IMG/VR virus record: IMGVR_UViG_3300038701_000547
Coordinates: 1-34,056 of that record
From: a virus
Reading direction: 5' to 3' (one strand)
Length of the DNA stretch: 34,056 bases
Shown here: positions 2,916 through 25,986 of the stretch, one piece after another
Layout of the letters: the number at the start of each line of letters is the position of its first letter
Numbering within the stretch: position 1 is the stretch's first letter
Translations under genes and position numbers: made by a program
The notes under the pieces: generated by a model
Database searches by the model: none
Seen by the model: only the letters and a program-made list of their open reading frames with translations
What the model was told of the DNA's origin: nothing

Positions 2916-2950
2916 TGGAATTGGCGGGGGCGGCTTCGGTCGCCCCACGC

Positions 2951-3172
2951 GGTCAAGGTGAGGCGGTCGTGGTCCGGGATGGACTGGTCAGGCACGGCAC
3001 GGCGCGGCCTGGCAAGGCGGTCAAGGCACGGCAAGGCGTGGCGCGGCAAGGCGTGGCCTGGCAAGGCGGTCATGGCGGTCGGGGCGGGGCGGGGCAGGGC
3101 CGGGCAAGGCAAGGCCGGGCATGGCATGGCGAGGCGGTCGTGTCGTGTTCTGGATTGGCGCGGCAAGTCTAG
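2951..3172. repeat. GGCNN pentamer array A
   Basis: After the shared head GGTCAAGGTGAGGCGGTC (2951-2968) come about 23 exact GGCNN pentamers in strict 5-nt register (GGCAC, GGCGC, GGCAA, GGCGT, GGCAT and others). They are broken only by nonamers GGCGGTCAA, GGCGGTCAT and GGCGGTCGG. The period of 5 is not coding, and predicted frames across it are low complexity. It lies between the RAMP-like gene and the 164-aa gene. Function unknown. Confidence 0.85.
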
Positions 3173-3205
3173 CGTTCACCATCAACTGAAACGAAAGGAA
3201 GCAGA

Positions 3206-3700
3206 ATGAGTTTCAAAGCGAAAGATCGGCAGCGGATCATTGACGCCTATCTGGCCGAGACCGGGCGCAACATGTTCGTCGCGCCTGAGTTTGTGGACTG
3301 GCTTGCCGGTCAGCCTGACCATGAGATGTATGAGGCATTTTATGGGATGAGCGACACCGAGGCGGCAAGGCAGCACCGGATCGGGCTGGCGAGAAGGATG
3401 GCATCTGGCCTGCGGATCGTGGCGAAACAGGAGACGGTCGAGGCGAGTGTGGTTCAGATCACGACGCGGGAATATCCGGCTTTTGTCTCGCCTATGTCGG
3501 CACGCAAGGCAGGCGGCGGGTATCAGCCGGTGGACCCGTCCGACGTGGATCAGATGGCCGAGTTGCGGCGGCAGGGCGCGTCCGCTCTCCGGGGATGGCT
3601 GTCGCGCTATCGTGGCGTGTTTGAGGCCGCTGGCGTTGATCTGTCGGCGATCGAACAAATCGCGTCGTCTGAGGACGGCAGCGTGGCGCAAACCGCTTGA
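3206..3700 (+). CDS. Conserved phage hypothetical protein (164 aa) between repeat arrays
   Basis: Unrecognised function. The protein is mostly helical and soluble, with no transmembrane segment. Its N-terminus RQRIIDAYLAETGRNMFVAPEFVDWLAGQPDHE looks like a small globular domain. The second half is a helical bundle around ALRGWLSRYRGVFEAAGVDL. ATG 3206 follows GAAAGGAAGC. The gene has normal GC-rich coding character, unlike its flanks: array A ends about 35 nt upstream and array B begins about 12 nt downstream, so gene plus array look like a cassette. A DNA-binding or regulatory role is possible but not shown. Confidence 0.7.
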   Translation: MSFKAKDRQRIIDAYLAETGRNMFVAPEFVDWLAGQPDHEMYEAFYGMSDTEAARQHRIGLARRMASGLRIVAKQETVEASVVQITTREYPAFVSPMSARKAGGGYQPVDPSDVDQMAELRRQGASALRGWLSRYRGVFEAAGVDLSAIEQIASSEDGSVAQTA

Positions 3701-3711
3701 GCGGTAGCGCT

Positions 3712-4017
3712 GGTCAAGGTGAGGCGGTCATGGCGCGGTCTGGCGGGGCGGGGCGGGGCGAGGCTGGGCGGTCGTGGCCCGGAATGATTTGGCACGGCAC
3801 GGCACGGTCAGGCATGGCCCGGCGGTCGTGGTAGGGTTTGGAGCGTCTAGGCAAGGCTCGGAAAGGCGGTCAAGGCGCGGCAGGGCGTGGCGAGGTCTGG
3901 CATGGCGGTCGGGGCATGGCGTGGCGAGATCAGGCGTGGCATGGCACGGCATGGCACGGTGAGGCGGTCATGGCCCGGCGTGGCGGGGCAAGGCAAGGCT
4001 GGGCGAGGCGGTCTTAG
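3712..4017. repeat. GGCNN pentamer array B
   Basis: It starts with the same GGTCAAGGTGAGGCGGTC head (3712-3729) 12 nt after a stop codon. It continues as GGCNN pentamers with a few variants (GGTCT, GGTCA, GATCA, GGTGA) that still keep the 5-nt register, punctuated by GGCGGTCAT, GGCGGTCGT, GGCGGTCAA and GGCGGTCGG nonamers. It ends at GGCGGTCTT near 4008-4016. This fills most of the 394-nt gene-free stretch 3701-4094; the remainder holds the portal promoter. Confidence 0.85.
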
Positions 4018-4094: not shown

Positions 4095-5327
4095 ATGGGC
4101 ATCTTCGACCGTCTCCGCAAGCCGGAGGCCCGCAATCTCGAAAACCCCAGTGCGCCCGTTTCAGCGGAGGACTTCCTGCAAGTTATGGGCTGGGGCGGCG
4201 GTATGTCCGAATCCGGCATCAACGTCACCATCGACGCTGCGCTTGGCGTCCCGGCGATCTGGTCGGCGGTCAACTTCCTGAGCGGCACCTTGGCTGGCCT
4301 TCCCCTGCACGTCTACCGGAAGACCAAGGACGGGCGCGAGCGGGTCGAGACCGGCAACCTTCCCCGCATCCTTCACGACATCGCAAACGACGAGATGTCG
4401 TCCTTCGAGTGGCGGAAGTATCTGTTTGATCAGGTGTTCACCGGCGGGCGCTGCGTCTCCTACATCGAGCGCAACGGCGGGGGTCAGGTGGTCAACATCT
4501 GGCCGCTTGATCCGCATCACACGCGGGTGGATCACGTCTATCAGGACCGGAAGCTGGTCAAGGTCTACACCTACCGGGGCCAGAAGTATTCCGCGAACGA
4601 GGTGATCGACATCACGTTCATGCTCAAGGCCAATGGCCTCGACATCCGTGGTCCGATCATGACGAACAAGGACGCCATCGGGCTTGCCATCGCGGCGACC
4701 AAGTACGGGTCCAAGGCGTTCCAGTCTGGCGGCATCCCTCCGATGACGCTTCAAGGTCCGTTCCAGTCCGGTGCCGCTGCGTCTCGCGCATCAACCGACG
4801 TGGCGAACACCACGCTTAAGCTGGCGCGCGAGGGCAAGCCGGTTATGGCGATCCCGATGGGTCACGAACTGAAGCCGGTCGGGTTCTCCCCGGACAAGAT
4901 GCAGCTTCTGGAGCTTCAGCGGTTCAGCATCGAGCAGGTCGCCCGCATCTACAGCCTGCCCCCGATCTTCTTGCAGGACCTGTCGAAGGGCACCTACTCG
5001 AACACGGAACAGCAAGACCTTCACTTCGTGAAACACACGCTCAAGCGGTGGATCGAGCAGTTCGAGCACGAGTTGAACCTGAAGCTGTTCCCGCGCGGCA
5101 GCAAGAACTACGTCGAGTTCAACGTGGATGGTCTCCTGCGAGGCGACTTCAAGACCCGGATGGAAGCGCACGCGGCATCTATCCAGAACGGCATTCGGAC
5201 CCCGAACGAGGTGCGGGACATCGAGAACCTGCAACCGCGTCCCGAGGGCGACCGGCTTATGATCCAGGGCGCGACTGTCCCGATTGCAATGCAAATGGAG
5301 CTTCCGCTAGATGCCGGTTCCAACTGA
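4095..5327 (+). CDS. Portal protein (HK97 family)
   Basis: Forms the dodecameric portal ring through which DNA enters the head. The 410-aa length is typical for HK97-type portals. The N-terminal part has LGVPAIWSAVNFLSGTLAGLPLHVY. The family signature lies near residues 288-330, with PPIFL followed by GTYSNTEQQDLHFVKHTLKRW. The C-terminus has the usual R-T-P-NEVRDIENLQP segment. ATG 4095 has only a weak Shine-Dalgarno. The 3' end overlaps the protease gene by 17 nt. Confidence 0.95.
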   Translation: MGIFDRLRKPEARNLENPSAPVSAEDFLQVMGWGGGMSESGINVTIDAALGVPAIWSAVNFLSGTLAGLPLHVYRKTKDGRERVETGNLPRILHDIANDEMSSFEWRKYLFDQVFTGGRCVSYIERNGGGQVVNIWPLDPHHTRVDHVYQDRKLVKVYTYRGQKYSANEVIDITFMLKANGLDIRGPIMTNKDAIGLAIAATKYGSKAFQSGGIPPMTLQGPFQSGAAASRASTDVANTTLKLAREGKPVMAIPMGHELKPVGFSPDKMQLLELQRFSIEQVARIYSLPPIFLQDLSKGTYSNTEQQDLHFVKHTLKRWIEQFEHELNLKLFPRGSKNYVEFNVDGLLRGDFKTRMEAHAASIQNGIRTPNEVRDIENLQPRPEGDRLMIQGATVPIAMQMELPLDAGSN

Positions 5328-22267: not shown

Positions 22268-22446
22268 CTTTCCCACTCGTGGCATTCGACCGTGACGGCG
22301 ATCGACATGTCGTAGAGGTCCTGAACCCGCCCCTTCGACTTCCGCGCTCGGATGATCGCAGCCTCGATTCGGTTGCGCTCCGCATACAACTTCGTCAGCC
22401 GCCTCTTTGCGATTGGCCGCATGATGGGCTTGAGCAGCCACCTCAT
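22255..22446 (-). CDS. Small basic helical protein (63 aa)
   Basis: Very basic N-terminus (RWLLKPIMRPIAKRRLTKLYAERNR), then a helix and SIAVTVECHEWERW. Unrecognised. Start overlaps the GapR-like stop (ATGA) and end overlaps the HNH start, so it is translated as part of the chain. Basic charge suggests nucleic acid binding, but no motif is clear. Confidence 0.6.
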   Translation of the reverse strand: MRWLLKPIMRPIAKRRLTKLYAERNRIEAAIIRARKSKGRVQDLYDMSIAVTVECHEWERWLD

Positions 22447-22685
22447 AGCCCGAGGGCCTCCCGGTATACGGCTTCGATGGCCTCTTCCTCGGCGATGTCT
22501 TCCGCCCGCTTCTTGCGAAGGGCCACAATCTTGCTGATCGTCTTCGGGCAGTATCCGAGCGCCTTGGCTTCGGCATAGATTTCTTTCCGCGCCTCGGTCT
22601 CGTCGGCGATCCGCTCATTCTGGGATTCGATGCGCTCCACGATCTGGCGAAGCTGATCCGCTGCGGTGGTGTCGATGTTTTCCAT
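22443..22685 (-). CDS. GapR/DUF2312-like nucleoid-associated protein
   Basis: 80 aa. ADQLRQIVERIESQNERIADETEARKEIYAEAKALGYCPKTISKIVALRKK, then an acidic AEEEAIEAVYREALGL, matches the layout of DUF2312: a long N-terminal helix for dimerisation, a turn with G-Y/F, and a basic K-x4-LRK region. In alphaproteobacteria, GapR binds overtwisted DNA and stimulates topoisomerases. A phage copy could manage DNA ahead of replication forks. Starts just after the upstream stop (1-nt gap). Confidence 0.88.
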   Translation of the reverse strand: MENIDTTAADQLRQIVERIESQNERIADETEARKEIYAEAKALGYCPKTISKIVALRKKRAEDIAEEEAIEAVYREALGL

Positions 22686-23333: not shown

Positions 23334-23506
23334 CAGCCGCCGCCCCGCATCGTCCAGTGATCGATCATCACGCGCCGCACGCGCTCGACGCTCACGCCCA
23401 GCTCTTGGGCGGTTCGATCGACAACGTATATTGGACTGATATTGGCGATCCCGCCGCACTGTTCTTCGATGCGGTCATAGGCTTTGACGATGTCTGCATC
23501 GGTCAT
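23333..23506 (-). CDS. Small HTH-like protein (57 aa)
   Basis: Reads MTDADIVKAYDRIEEQCGGI, then ANISPIYVVDRTAQELGVSV and ERVRRVMIDHWTMRGGG. TAQELGVSVERVRRVMIDH is a plausible helix-turn-helix. Both ends overlap neighbouring genes by a few bases (TGATG at each), and the upstream AAGGAAG is a ribosome site. Below the usual 60-codon cutoff, so easily missed. Confidence 0.7.
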   Translation of the reverse strand: MTDADIVKAYDRIEEQCGGIANISPIYVVDRTAQELGVSVERVRRVMIDHWTMRGGG

Positions 23507-24198
23507 CAGTAAGCTTCCTTTTCGGTCCAGCGGCGCACGCCGGATATCTCGGTGTCCTTATGGTTCTTGGCGACGTAGGCCTCGATGAAGGCTGTCACCG
23601 CATCCCGATCATTCTGGGCGATCCAGTGCAGCGCGGCGCGGTGGTCCGCGATCTCGTAGCGGTGGACCGTCCGCATCCCTTTGACCTTGTCCTTCTGCTT
23701 GACGCTTGCTTCTTCGAGCGCGCGCTGCGCTTGGGCGGCCTTCTCGGCGGCTTCGCGCTGGGCGGCTATGTCCGAGGCATGTGCGGCCCGTGCGGCCTCC
23801 TGCCCCTCGCGCTTGGCCTTCTCTGCCGCTTCCCATGCTGCGCGCTTCTCTGCCTCCTTCTGGGCAGCCAGGGCGCGCTTGAACGGGTCTTGACATGCGA
23901 CCAAGCCTTTGATGATCCGGTCGAGGTCGTCCTGCGTAGGCTTCCAGCGCGCCACTTCTGCCTTCCAAGCCTCGTGCAGCGGCTTGGTGGCTTCGTCGCG
24001 CGCGGCGTTCAGGTCTTTCAGCGCGCCCTTGATCGTCTTGAGCAGGGCGTCGGTTGCCTTCAATTGGCCCTCGTTCTGGATCGGCTCTCCGTCGAGCCAG
24101 TTCTGCGCCTCATCGATGGCATCGCCATAAGGCGCGAGGGCTTCGTCAATCGGGTCTGGCGGGTTGTTGTGATTGCGGGGCGGTAGGGTGTCATTCAT
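23506..24198 (-). CDS. Coiled-coil early phage protein (230 aa)
   Basis: Starts at ATG 24198, with GGAGG 7 nt upstream; GTG 24204 is the alternative. N-terminal NNPPDPIDEALAPYGDAIDEAQNWLDGEP, then a basic helix region, a long coiled coil (AQKEAEKRAAWEAAEKAKREGQEAARAAH...) and a small C-terminal domain (MRTVHRYEIADHRAALHWIAQNDRDAVTAFIEAYVAKNHK). Proteins of this shape are common next to ERF and NinB. It may be an accessory of the recombinase; unproven. Confidence 0.7.
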   Translation of the reverse strand: MNDTLPPRNHNNPPDPIDEALAPYGDAIDEAQNWLDGEPIQNEGQLKATDALLKTIKGALKDLNAARDEATKPLHEAWKAEVARWKPTQDDLDRIIKGLVACQDPFKRALAAQKEAEKRAAWEAAEKAKREGQEAARAAHASDIAAQREAAEKAAQAQRALEEASVKQKDKVKGMRTVHRYEIADHRAALHWIAQNDRDAVTAFIEAYVAKNHKDTEISGVRRWTEKEAY

Positions 24199-24200
24199 GA

Positions 24201-24407
24201 TCACACCTCCTTTTCGATCAGAATCGCGTTGATCGGCTTACAGCGAAATGCTGGTTCTGGAACATCGACCTCGTGAACAGTCACTGGCTTGCGTCCGTCC
24301 TTGGTTTCGACCACGACAAAATCGCCGGGGGAAAGCTGTTCCTCCCCGTCATAGGTGTAGGTGTATGCCCGATAGTCTGCTGAGTTGAATTTCACTGAAA
24401 TGAACAT
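24201..24407 (-). CDS. Small beta-rich protein (68 aa)
   Basis: MFISVKFNSADYRAYTYTYD, then GEEQLSPGDFVVVETKDGRKPVTVHEVD. The pattern of strands around GDFVVVETKDGR recalls the small N-terminal domain of PriA-like proteins, but similarity is weak and by eye. GGAGG is 5 nt before ATG 24407. The stop is 2 nt before the next gene's start. Function unknown. Confidence 0.65.
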   Translation of the reverse strand: MFISVKFNSADYRAYTYTYDGEEQLSPGDFVVVETKDGRKPVTVHEVDVPEPAFRCKPINAILIEKEV

Positions 24408-24448
24408 TGGTTCCTCCGTTTGATGTGAAGATGGTTGGGCCGAAGCCC

Positions 24449-25060
24449 CTAGTATGGTATTTGGTCTCCATCGAGATCGTTGTTCGCTGGCTTGCTCATG
24501 CGCTCTTTGGCTGCGTCCTTGGCGGAGATCACGTCTGCGCTGGCCTGCACCGGCTTTGGAATTCGCCCCCAGCGCTCTTTCAGGTCGTCCAAGCTGTCGG
24601 CTTCTGAGAGATATTTCTTGGCCCGCTCAATCGCCTCTGCGTCGGTTTCCTGCGGCTTCTGCTGGCGCTGTTCCTGATTCGGAGGTGCCTTTGCCGCCGC
24701 GTTCCCGTCATCGTCTTCAGGAGCGATGCCAGCCATCGCCATTAGCCCGTATCTCCGAGCATAGGTCACTGCTGACCCATAGCCCTGCATGTCGTTCTTC
24801 GAGACGATCAGCGGAACCCGGCAGGTGAGGCTTTCGCCGCTCTCACCGTGGATCAGTATCGTCTCGACATAACGCCCGTGCTCGTCCTCTCCGGTAGGCT
24901 GAATCAATGCGATGCCAGCTTCATTGAGCGCAGGAAGGCAGGCGTCCATGACGTTCCCCAGATCGGCATACTTGCTGCGGAAGTGAGGGTTGCTGGCCTG
25001 CTTGAGCGCCTTGCCCATGTTGGCCTGCGCTTTTGCCAATGCTGTTGCGATACCCTTCAT
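24449..25060 (-). CDS. erf: ERF-family ssDNA annealing protein
   Basis: 203 aa. The core of P22 Erf-type recombinases is visible: KALKQASNPHFRSKYADLGNVMDACLPALNEAGIALIQ, and YGSAVTYARRYGLMAMAGIAPEDDDGN. The linker is Gln-rich, followed by a small C-terminal helical domain ending in DLDGDQIPY, whose acidic tip resembles an SSB-like tail. It promotes annealing and circularisation or recombination of phage DNA. GGAGGGG lies 7 nt upstream of ATG 25060. Confidence 0.93.
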   Translation of the reverse strand: MKGIATALAKAQANMGKALKQASNPHFRSKYADLGNVMDACLPALNEAGIALIQPTGEDEHGRYVETILIHGESGESLTCRVPLIVSKNDMQGYGSAVTYARRYGLMAMAGIAPEDDDGNAAAKAPPNQEQRQQKPQETDAEAIERAKKYLSEADSLDDLKERWGRIPKPVQASADVISAKDAAKERMSKPANNDLDGDQIPY

Positions 25061-25061
25061 C

Positions 25062-25715
25062 TCAAAACCCCTCCTTCAGCATCTTGCGGAGCTGCTGCTC
25101 CTGCGCTTCCCCTGCGGCGGCCCGTGTGGCGGCCCGTGTGGCGGTCCATGCGGAGGCCCATGCGGCGGCCCATGCGGCGGCCCGTGTGGCGGTCCATGCG
25201 GAGGCCCATGCGGCGGCCCATGCGGCGGCCCGTGTGGCGGCCCGTGTGGCGGCCCGTGTGGCGGCCCATGCGGCGGCCTCTGCGGCGGCCTCTGCGGCGT
25301 CCCGTGCGGCCTCTGCGGCGTCCCATGCGGCCTCTGCGGCTTCTGCGGCTTCTGCGGCGGCCTCTGCGGCGGCCCGTGCGGCGGCCCGCTCGTCAGGCGT
25401 TGCGGCGTCGTTCCGCAGCATGGCGATCTGATCGCGGATGCGTTTGTCGTTGGGGTATTGTGCCTCGTAGAGGTGCATCACTTGTTCTGCGCACCACGCC
25501 TGAAAATGGCGGGACAGGCGGTCGTGATCGGGTTGCATTGCGTGGGACAGCACCCACAGGGCGTCGTCCAGCCCGTTGCTGTTGAGGATGGCCATGAGCG
25601 GAAGAGGCTCGTCGTCGGCCTTGGTCTTGCCAAGGTGTGCTAGCAGTTTTTCCCAGCCATCCTTGCAAGGGGACGCCCTGCGGATGCGGGCAAGTGTCGT
25701 GGTGTAGGTGGTCAT
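25062..25715 (-). CDS. Ala-rich repeat phage protein (Imm5-like)
   Basis: 217 aa from ATG 25715. N-terminal LLAHLGKTKADDEPLPLMAILNSNGLDDALWVLSHAMQPDHDRLSRHFQAWCAEQVMHLYEAQYPNDK is a conserved phage module; similar sequences with Ala-rich tails have been called Imm5-like. Then ERAAARAAAEAAAEAAEAAEAAW and many A-A-x-A tetrads with W, R, T or S at the variable place, forming a long helix. DNA here is a 12-bp satellite. Function unknown; an immunity role is not shown. Confidence 0.7.
   Translation of the reverse strand: MTTYTTTLARIRRASPCKDGWEKLLAHLGKTKADDEPLPLMAILNSNGLDDALWVLSHAMQPDHDRLSRHFQAWCAEQVMHLYEAQYPNDKRIRDQIAMLRNDAATPDERAAARAAAEAAAEAAEAAEAAWDAAEAARDAAEAAAEAAAWAATRAATRAATRAAAWAAAWASAWTATRAAAWAAAWASAWTATRAATRAAAGEAQEQQLRKMLKEGF
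25114..25390. repeat. 12-bp tandem repeat within a coding region
   Basis: Roughly 23 units of consensus GCGGCCCRTGYG with variants GCGGTCCATGCG, GAGGCCCATGCG, GCGGCCTCTGCG. A 48-bp block (25129-25176) is exactly repeated at 25177-25224, which points to recent slippage. In frame on the minus strand each unit encodes a tetrapeptide such as AAWA or ATRA. Confidence 0.9.
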
Positions 25716-25813
25716 CAGAAGCCCACCCCGTGGCCGAGCACCAGCATCGCGTAGCCGGTCCCGAAGATGCACACGACCCCGAGGAAATCGCAGATGATGT
25801 CTTTGATGTTCAT
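25715..25813 (-). CDS. 32-aa single-span membrane protein
   Basis: Reads MNIKDIICDFLGVVCIFGTG, then YAMLVLGHGVGF. One transmembrane segment, ending just after a Gly-rich turn. Start overlaps the upstream 58-aa gene stop (ATGA) and the stop overlaps the start of the Ala-rich gene. GGGAAG precedes the ATG. Small membrane proteins like this recur in early operons of alphaproteobacterial phages; role unknown. Confidence 0.65.
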   Translation of the reverse strand: MNIKDIICDFLGVVCIFGTGYAMLVLGHGVGF

Positions 25814-25986
25814 GGTTCTTCCCTTTTCTTAATCTCGTATCCGAGCGCATCGGCGAGGTCGTTCATGGCTTCGTGCGCATTCTGAAGATGGAAATCGCGG
25901 CGACTGCCTTCTTCGGTCCAGTAGACCAGCAGCATGTTTTTAGCGATTTCTTCGGCATAGATGCGAGCGAGGATTGCTTTGCTCAT
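25810..25986 (-). CDS. Small hypothetical protein (58 aa)
   Basis: Begins MSKAILARIYAEEIAKNMLL, continues VYWTEEGSRRDFHLQNAHEA and ends MNDLADALGYEIKKREEP. Helical then short beta. No known motif. Start overlaps the zinc-finger gene stop by 4 nt (ATGA) and the end overlaps the next gene by 4 nt. Confidence 0.65.
   Translation of the reverse strand: MSKAILARIYAEEIAKNMLLVYWTEEGSRRDFHLQNAHEAMNDLADALGYEIKKREEP

Follow-up and report, generated by a model that had tools for sequence, protein, structure and literature searches.

The window, by which we mean the whole 34,056-base IMG/VR virus record analysed here, carries a compact two-gene cassette (2157–2915 and 3206–3700, both on the plus strand) in the interval between its terminase gene (458–1972) and its portal gene (4095–5327). 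Flanking this cassette are two repeat arrays, also read on the plus strand and separated from each other by the protein gene at 3206–3700; these run from 2948 to 3171 (array 1) and from ~3709 to 4015 (array 2). The span of 2951–4017 given for the repeats in a preliminary description of this DNA also takes in the intervening gene.

Both arrays are built from GGYNN pentamers, punctuated by nonamers of the form GGCGGTCNN. In array 1 one GGC follows another at a distance of +5 on 23 occasions in 200 nt, against a mean of 6.4 expected from order-2 Markov resampling of the array itself; in array 2 the count is 27 in 306 nt, against 7.1 expected—values that none of 2000 resamplings reached for either array. 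The only other GGC spacings within the range 3–12 are +9 (three times in array 1, five times in array 2) and +10, the latter corresponding to two pentamers. GGT, GGA, GAT, GTC and GTT are all tolerated as variants of GGC. The strict 5-nt register first noted in the preliminary description is thus real, and its proposal that the GGC spacing is under selection is supported. The register is preserved in distant relatives. The NN positions have an entropy of 2.68 nats out of a maximum of 2.77, with the core kept; variation of this kind is not slippage noise, as had been argued at the outset. A separate repeat tract, of ~23 copies of a 12-bp unit, lies at 25109–25388, within the minus-strand ORF at 25062–25850 (an alanine-rich low-complexity tail).

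Segmentation of the arrays yields units in which GGCGGTCNN comes first and 6 to 10 GGYNN pentamers follow, giving 7–11 dinucleotides per nonamer-bounded unit; we refer to the ordered dinucleotides of each unit as a ‘guide’. The last two bases of the nonamer may be AA, AT, GT, GG or TT, making the form first proposed for it, GGCGGTCRW, too narrow. Array 1 opens with a leader-like sequence (CGCGGTCAAGGTGA; 2948–2961), of a GGTCAAGGNRA type that recurs at the array starts of many relatives. It is followed by guide 1.1 (2962–3015; GT CC AT CT CA AC AC GC CT AA), guide 1.2 (3016–3064; AA AC AA GT GC AA GT CT AA), a lone nonamer (GGCGGTCAT; 3065–3073), guide 1.3 (3074–3132; GG GG GG AG CG AA AA CG AT AT GA) and a degenerate last unit (3133–3171; GT GT CT TT GC AA TA) common to the window phage and five relatives. 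Array 2 likewise opens with the recurring leader type (GCTGGTCAAGGTGA; 3709–3722), from which six guides run on in succession: 2.1 (3723–3766; AT GC CT GG GG GG GA TG), 2.2 (3767–3820; GT CC AT TT AC AC AC CA AT CC), 2.3 (3821–3864; GT AG TT GC TA AA TC AA), 2.4 (3865–3903; AA GC AG GT GA CT AT), 2.5 (3904–3962; GG AT GT GA CA GT AT AC AT AC GA, a unit also delimited by the target matches described below) and 2.6 (3963–4006; AT CC GT GG AA AA TG GA). A terminal nonamer (GGCGGTCTT; 4007–4015) closes the array. Among relatives too, arrays often open with a leader resembling GGTCAAGGTRA and commonly close with a nonamer, and the guides vary even among close relatives.

The form of the nonamer differs between clades: GGCG|GTCNN accompanies GGYNN pentamers, GTCG|GTTNN accompanies GTTNN, and GTCG|GTCNN accompanies GTCNN, with GGCA|GGCNN or GGCT|GGCNN found elsewhere. 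This comparison indicates that the nonamer consists of a repeat one base short (here GGCG) and then an ordinary repeat. As we read the sequences, the nonamer marks a guide boundary, and the NN of its ordinary repeat opens the next guide; the short repeat may serve to break the register of a bound protein, or to mark RNA ends.

The first gene of the cassette (2157–2915) encodes a 252-residue protein belonging to PHROG 4652, a group whose function is annotated as unknown, and for which Pfam holds no family. Its AlphaFold2 model (pLDDT 82.6) has as its top VIA matches Csm3, type VII Cas7, Cmr and gRAMP subunits, with Z-scores of up to 9.5 (3.6 Å over 153 residues); the protein is therefore predicted to fold as a CRISPR RAMP of the Cas7/Csm3-like kind. 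A profile made from 24 homologues retrieved one PDB sequence, that of the ‘SUSP1 Vipr protein’ (36pp; E 2e-4, in the G-loop region), and an hhalign comparison with SUSP1 Vipr gave a probability of 94%. The sequence similarity to SUSP1 Vipr spans just the C-terminal G-loop region, where the motif GxGDxRxxKG is conserved in 24 homologues.

SUSP1 Vipr belongs to VIPR, a recently described, CRISPR-related phage weapon against rival phages, in which a RAMP protein and an accessory gene act with vrRNAs composed of GGY/NN repeats; each NN pair binds DNA, and a single base of the target is then skipped (PMC13142463). The Vipr RAMP fold comprises an RRM core, a G-rich loop and a thumb, and each vrRNA carries 9–16 repeats (PMC13142463). 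A literature search on GGCNN and pentanucleotide arrays returned nothing relevant besides this preprint, and Rfam contained no match for the arrays. The preliminary description had found no named class to fit the repeats; the vrRNAs of VIPR do (PMC13142463). We consequently refer to 2157–2915 as the vipr-like gene, encoding a predicted vrRNA-binding RAMP subunit, and the suggestion that the repeats form an RNP array bound by the product of a neighbouring gene probably holds, in the person of this protein.

Most of the loci we fetched have, downstream of vipr, a homologue of the second gene (3206–3700; 164 residues), making this gene a candidate vap, the accessory partner; at low identity, homologues also occur in mycobacteriophages. 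Its model (pLDDT 90) has a helix-rich N-terminus followed by a beta-hairpin, a succession of secondary structure that suggests a winged-helix-like protein. Foldseek returned no PDB fold match with an E-value below 0.5, Pfam gave stray single-member matches only, and BLASTP detected no similarity to the vap candidate of SUSP1. PADLOC had no match for either gene of the cassette, and no cas genes were found among nine window proteins scanned.

Looking across relatives, the array is present at 76 of the 82 loci, from viral contigs and bacterial genomes, that encode a Vipr homologue, and several of the six loci that lack it end at a contig edge. Arrays on the same strand as vipr number 126, against 13 array-like calls on the opposite one; in 617 kb of other phage DNA, scanned on both strands, the detector makes a single array-like call. 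Array-like calls in four of the contigs that contain guide targets (L095, L167, L172 and L181) were weak, fell inside coding or low-complexity DNA, and were set aside. The length of the gap between vipr and vap varies freely modulo 3 among relatives, hence there is no conserved reading frame across it, and the view that the array is non-coding is borne out; neither outcome named as refuting the preliminary description, a lack of the array in relatives or a random decay of its register, was observed.

Several of the more remote loci deserve a brief description. In Mycobacterium phage Florinda (2450–3519 of that locus) distant vipr and vap homologues adjoin each other, annotated as hypothetical proteins and positioned downstream of repressor, Cro and antirepressor genes; in Gordonia phage UmaThurman a distant vipr homologue lies near integrase, repressor and excise genes, and in Gordonia phage Ecliptus another is followed by a gap with array-like repeats. 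One contig filed under a Nealsonbacteria MAG encodes a Vipr 92% identical to that of the window, and is probably a mis-binned phage contig. Very distant Vipr relatives occur at loci L082–L093 (Selenomonadaceae, Chloroflexota, Phycisphaerae and others), several of them with single or few pentamer arrays.

If the NN pairs act as they do in VIPR, then each guide should spell a target in which every third base is skipped. For guide 2.5, we searched IMG/VR with a 1-nt-skip pattern made from its inner ten dinucleotides (20 fixed bases), and obtained 37 exact matches; all lie in homologous copies of one gene, and so do not represent independent events. The same dinucleotides in reversed order gave no exact match in IMG/VR. 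The gene in question encodes an AAA_24 ATPase, a Sak4-like single-strand annealing protein of other phages, and the match falls on the coding strand, at ...KTGLELPG-IVDQVITMTD... and close variants thereof. Matched loci are in codon phase without exception (47 of 47, the nonamer NN included), with each skip coinciding with a wobble base. The codon preceding the match is GGN, in agreement with the nonamer's own NN, and both the codon two before and the codon after are mismatched to the nonamer's GG; the limits of this agreement define a guide as the NN of the nonamer plus all pentamer NNs until the next nonamer. Allowing up to 2 mismatches, the full pattern of guide 2.5 has 17 matches in 16 of 179 genomes from the family of Pararhodobacter marinus (Rhodobacteraceae, the host family), where the reversed control has none. 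The window phage itself carries an Erf annealing gene instead of a Sak4-type gene: at 23506–25060 on the minus strand, Erf and a PHROG 10477 exonuclease make up its own recombination pair, unlike the gene to which the guide is matched. Close by, also on the minus strand, 22443–22685 encodes a small GapR-like DNA-binding protein (PF10073, E 3e-20).

Searching with 323 guides across 1.7 Mb of fetched sequence, we find exact matches for seven guides with a 1-nt skip and for one with skip 0, and none with a 2-nt skip, with reversed order or with shuffled order; part of this sequence was fetched on account of its match to guide 2.5, and guides other than 2.5 thus give the fairest comparison of skips. 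Apart from guide 1.2, discussed below, the seven match phage genes: guide 2.5 and its variant in loci L004 and L013 match the Sak4-like gene, a guide of L008 matches that gene at another site, and guides of L015, L024 and L026 match, respectively, a Cas4-domain exonuclease, a phrog_2480 gene and a serine integrase. A 7-dinucleotide guide from a Methylobacterium locus (L070) also matches a RuvC-like resolvase gene. At the level of composition, the NN pairs of 178 guides of the clade correlate with codon positions 1–2 of target-phage genes (r 0.78), a closer fit than in any other of the six phases/strands. Whilst the preliminary description was correct in calling the NN positions variable, they are not merely ‘free’: they hold information, which reads as codon positions 1 and 2 of target genes.

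Targets were found for one of the roughly nine guides in the window. Guide 1.2 is among the seven with 1-nt-skip matches, and its five viral matches, in unrelated genes, were treated as chance. Guide 1.1 has one 18-base viral match (L131), which is off the frame expected for a wobble skip and has the nonamer dinucleotide mismatched at one base; it has no match in the 179 genomes. At full length, neither guide 1.3 nor guide 2.2 has an exact viral match, the former having one genome match with 3 mismatches. Guide 2.4 partly resembles the codons that precede the Sak4 site, which we took to be coincidence, and an initial local target search, restricted to VIPR loci, remained at chance level.

Variants of guide 2.5 in related phages provide a further view of this correspondence. 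In two loci (L004 and L013) the guide carries CT in place of AT, and this version matches three contigs exactly, the two with readable protein context encoding ITLTD, not ITMTD. A third locus (L001) contains two adjacent copies of the guide, one with GA for CA, and GA is found at that codon in prophage genes. Judged at the level of sequence, then, one guide of related phages fits exactly a different natural target allele.

Taking these observations together, we interpret the locus as a VIPR system of an alphaproteobacterial siphophage with Rhodobacteraceae-like hosts, to which reading we assign a probability of about 0.93: 2157–2915 would encode Vipr and 3206–3700 the accessory protein, with the arrays providing some nine vrRNA guides, of which guide 2.5 would be directed against a rival Sak4. 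The anatomy of the locus, the predicted RAMP fold, the conservation of the array with vipr, the target match and its codon phase all speak for it, and traits of VIPR are recognisable throughout—GGY arrays with hypervariable NN; a minimal, phage-borne vipr-plus-accessory locus with long intergenic flanks; and 1-nt-skip targets in other mobile elements, the skip falling mostly at the wobble position. The window's units, at 7–11 dinucleotides, compare with 9–16 repeats per VIPR vrRNA; overlapping mature RNAs could be longer. As to mechanism, we infer that the arrays are transcribed and assembled into RNPs, with Vipr subunits lining up on the GGY repeats to expose each NN pair. The pairs would then base-pair with double-stranded DNA, leaving one unpaired target base per repeat, such that n dinucleotides would span 3n bases; for the target found here, the paired bases would be codon positions 1 and 2, with the wobble base skipped. 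Repression of transcription on target binding has been demonstrated experimentally for SUSP1 VIPR (PMC13142463), and guide 2.5 may in the same manner bring the complex to the Sak4-like recombination gene that competing phages and prophages carry, silencing it; the predicted target site for this guide is GGNATNGTNGANCANGTNATNACNATNACNGA. More tentatively—we would put it at somewhat worse than even odds—VIPR in this clade may have evolved into a CRISPR-like multi-guide memory, where guides are arranged head-to-tail and the short repeat interrupts the 5-nt register, giving every guide an RNP filament to itself. Duplication of guides, and editing by single dinucleotides, would then track codon changes in the gene of the rival phage. 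The proposed editing is based on variants seen at one target site (AT/CT/TT and CA/GA), along with the two adjacent copies in L001.

Other explanations for the arrays have to be weighed against this one. The same Vipr machinery might mainly regulate the phage's own genes rather than act against rivals, and the last unit of array 1, common to six phages, could be a fixed regulatory guide; every target identified, however, belongs to another phage or prophage. Beyond the arrays, any match of a window guide to the window has at least 3 mismatches (we see no convincing self-target), and the best window match to guide 2.5 has 8 of 22 positions mismatched; together these findings leave self-regulation very unlikely. 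We consider it highly improbable that the arrays are DNA-binding sites, with a protein such as the 3206–3700 product recognising the GGC repeats for packaging, replication or partition. Location between terminase and portal genes does hint at packaging, and the repeats share one strand and a common spacing, but this leaves unexplained the in-phase agreement of NN pairs with codons of phage genes under a 1-nt skip, the company that arrays keep with a RAMP gene in many phage and bacterial contigs, and the divergence of guides among close relatives.

A structural RNA had been suggested early on. In one form of this idea the nonamers would pair mutually and loop out the pentamers, and one copy of GGCGGUC can indeed pair with another (GGC with GUC), the stem appearing in all five predicted folds. 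The folding energies of the five units nevertheless lie close to those of their dinucleotide shuffles (z +0.7 to -2.3), and nonamers of other clades (GGCAGGC, GTCGGTT) are unable to form the stem, which is therefore not conserved; we give this idea very little weight. Arrays that are tandem, G-rich and of short period might also bring to mind a functionless low-complexity expansion through slippage, or a coding repeat. Set against this are the near-maximal NN entropy beside a kept core, the modulo-3 variation of the vipr–vap gap, the register maintained across distant relatives and the target matches, and its probability is close to negligible.

Under the VIPR reading, the natural targets found in alphaproteobacterial phages, including co-matching alleles of guide and target, supply independent support, drawn from sequence, for the noncontiguous VIPR code. 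Punctuation by a one-base-short repeat would let many guides pack together without tails, and the genes targeted suggest that these phages contend over the genes by which rival temperate phages recombine and integrate.

Among the closest known systems is type II VIPR, as found in Escherichia phage SUSP1 and a Pseudomonas fulva prophage (PMC13142463): both share with the window a RAMP-fold Vipr (predicted, in our case), a small accessory gene directly after it, GGY/NN pentamer vrRNA arrays around these genes, a 1-nt skip on the wobble position and the targeting of competing mobile elements. They differ in that the window's Vipr can be aligned by sequence around the G-loop only, and its accessory protein is unrelated by BLASTP. 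The vrRNAs of type II are, moreover, ~100 nt in length, each with a hairpin tail, whereas the window's guides are contiguous, of 7–11 dinucleotides, with a 9-nt boundary; comparing them by eye with the SUSP1 sequence, we see no conserved structured 3' tail between the guides, the nonamer standing in its place. The description in PMC13142463 (fig. S18) of VIPR types with ‘staggered arrays with overlapping vrRNAs’ is also pertinent, in that contiguous arrays are common to both and neighbouring guides could share a boundary element; as far as that brief description goes, it may already cover the layout seen here, and the window could possibly belong to the same type. Class 1 CRISPR systems, with their identical long repeats and contiguous spacers, are unlike the window, which has gapped guides (one NN per pentamer), a 9-nt boundary and a single RAMP gene; what the two have in common is the RAMP fold itself (Cas7/Csm3), predicted here, and a guide array whose start resembles a leader and whose end is a boundary repeat.
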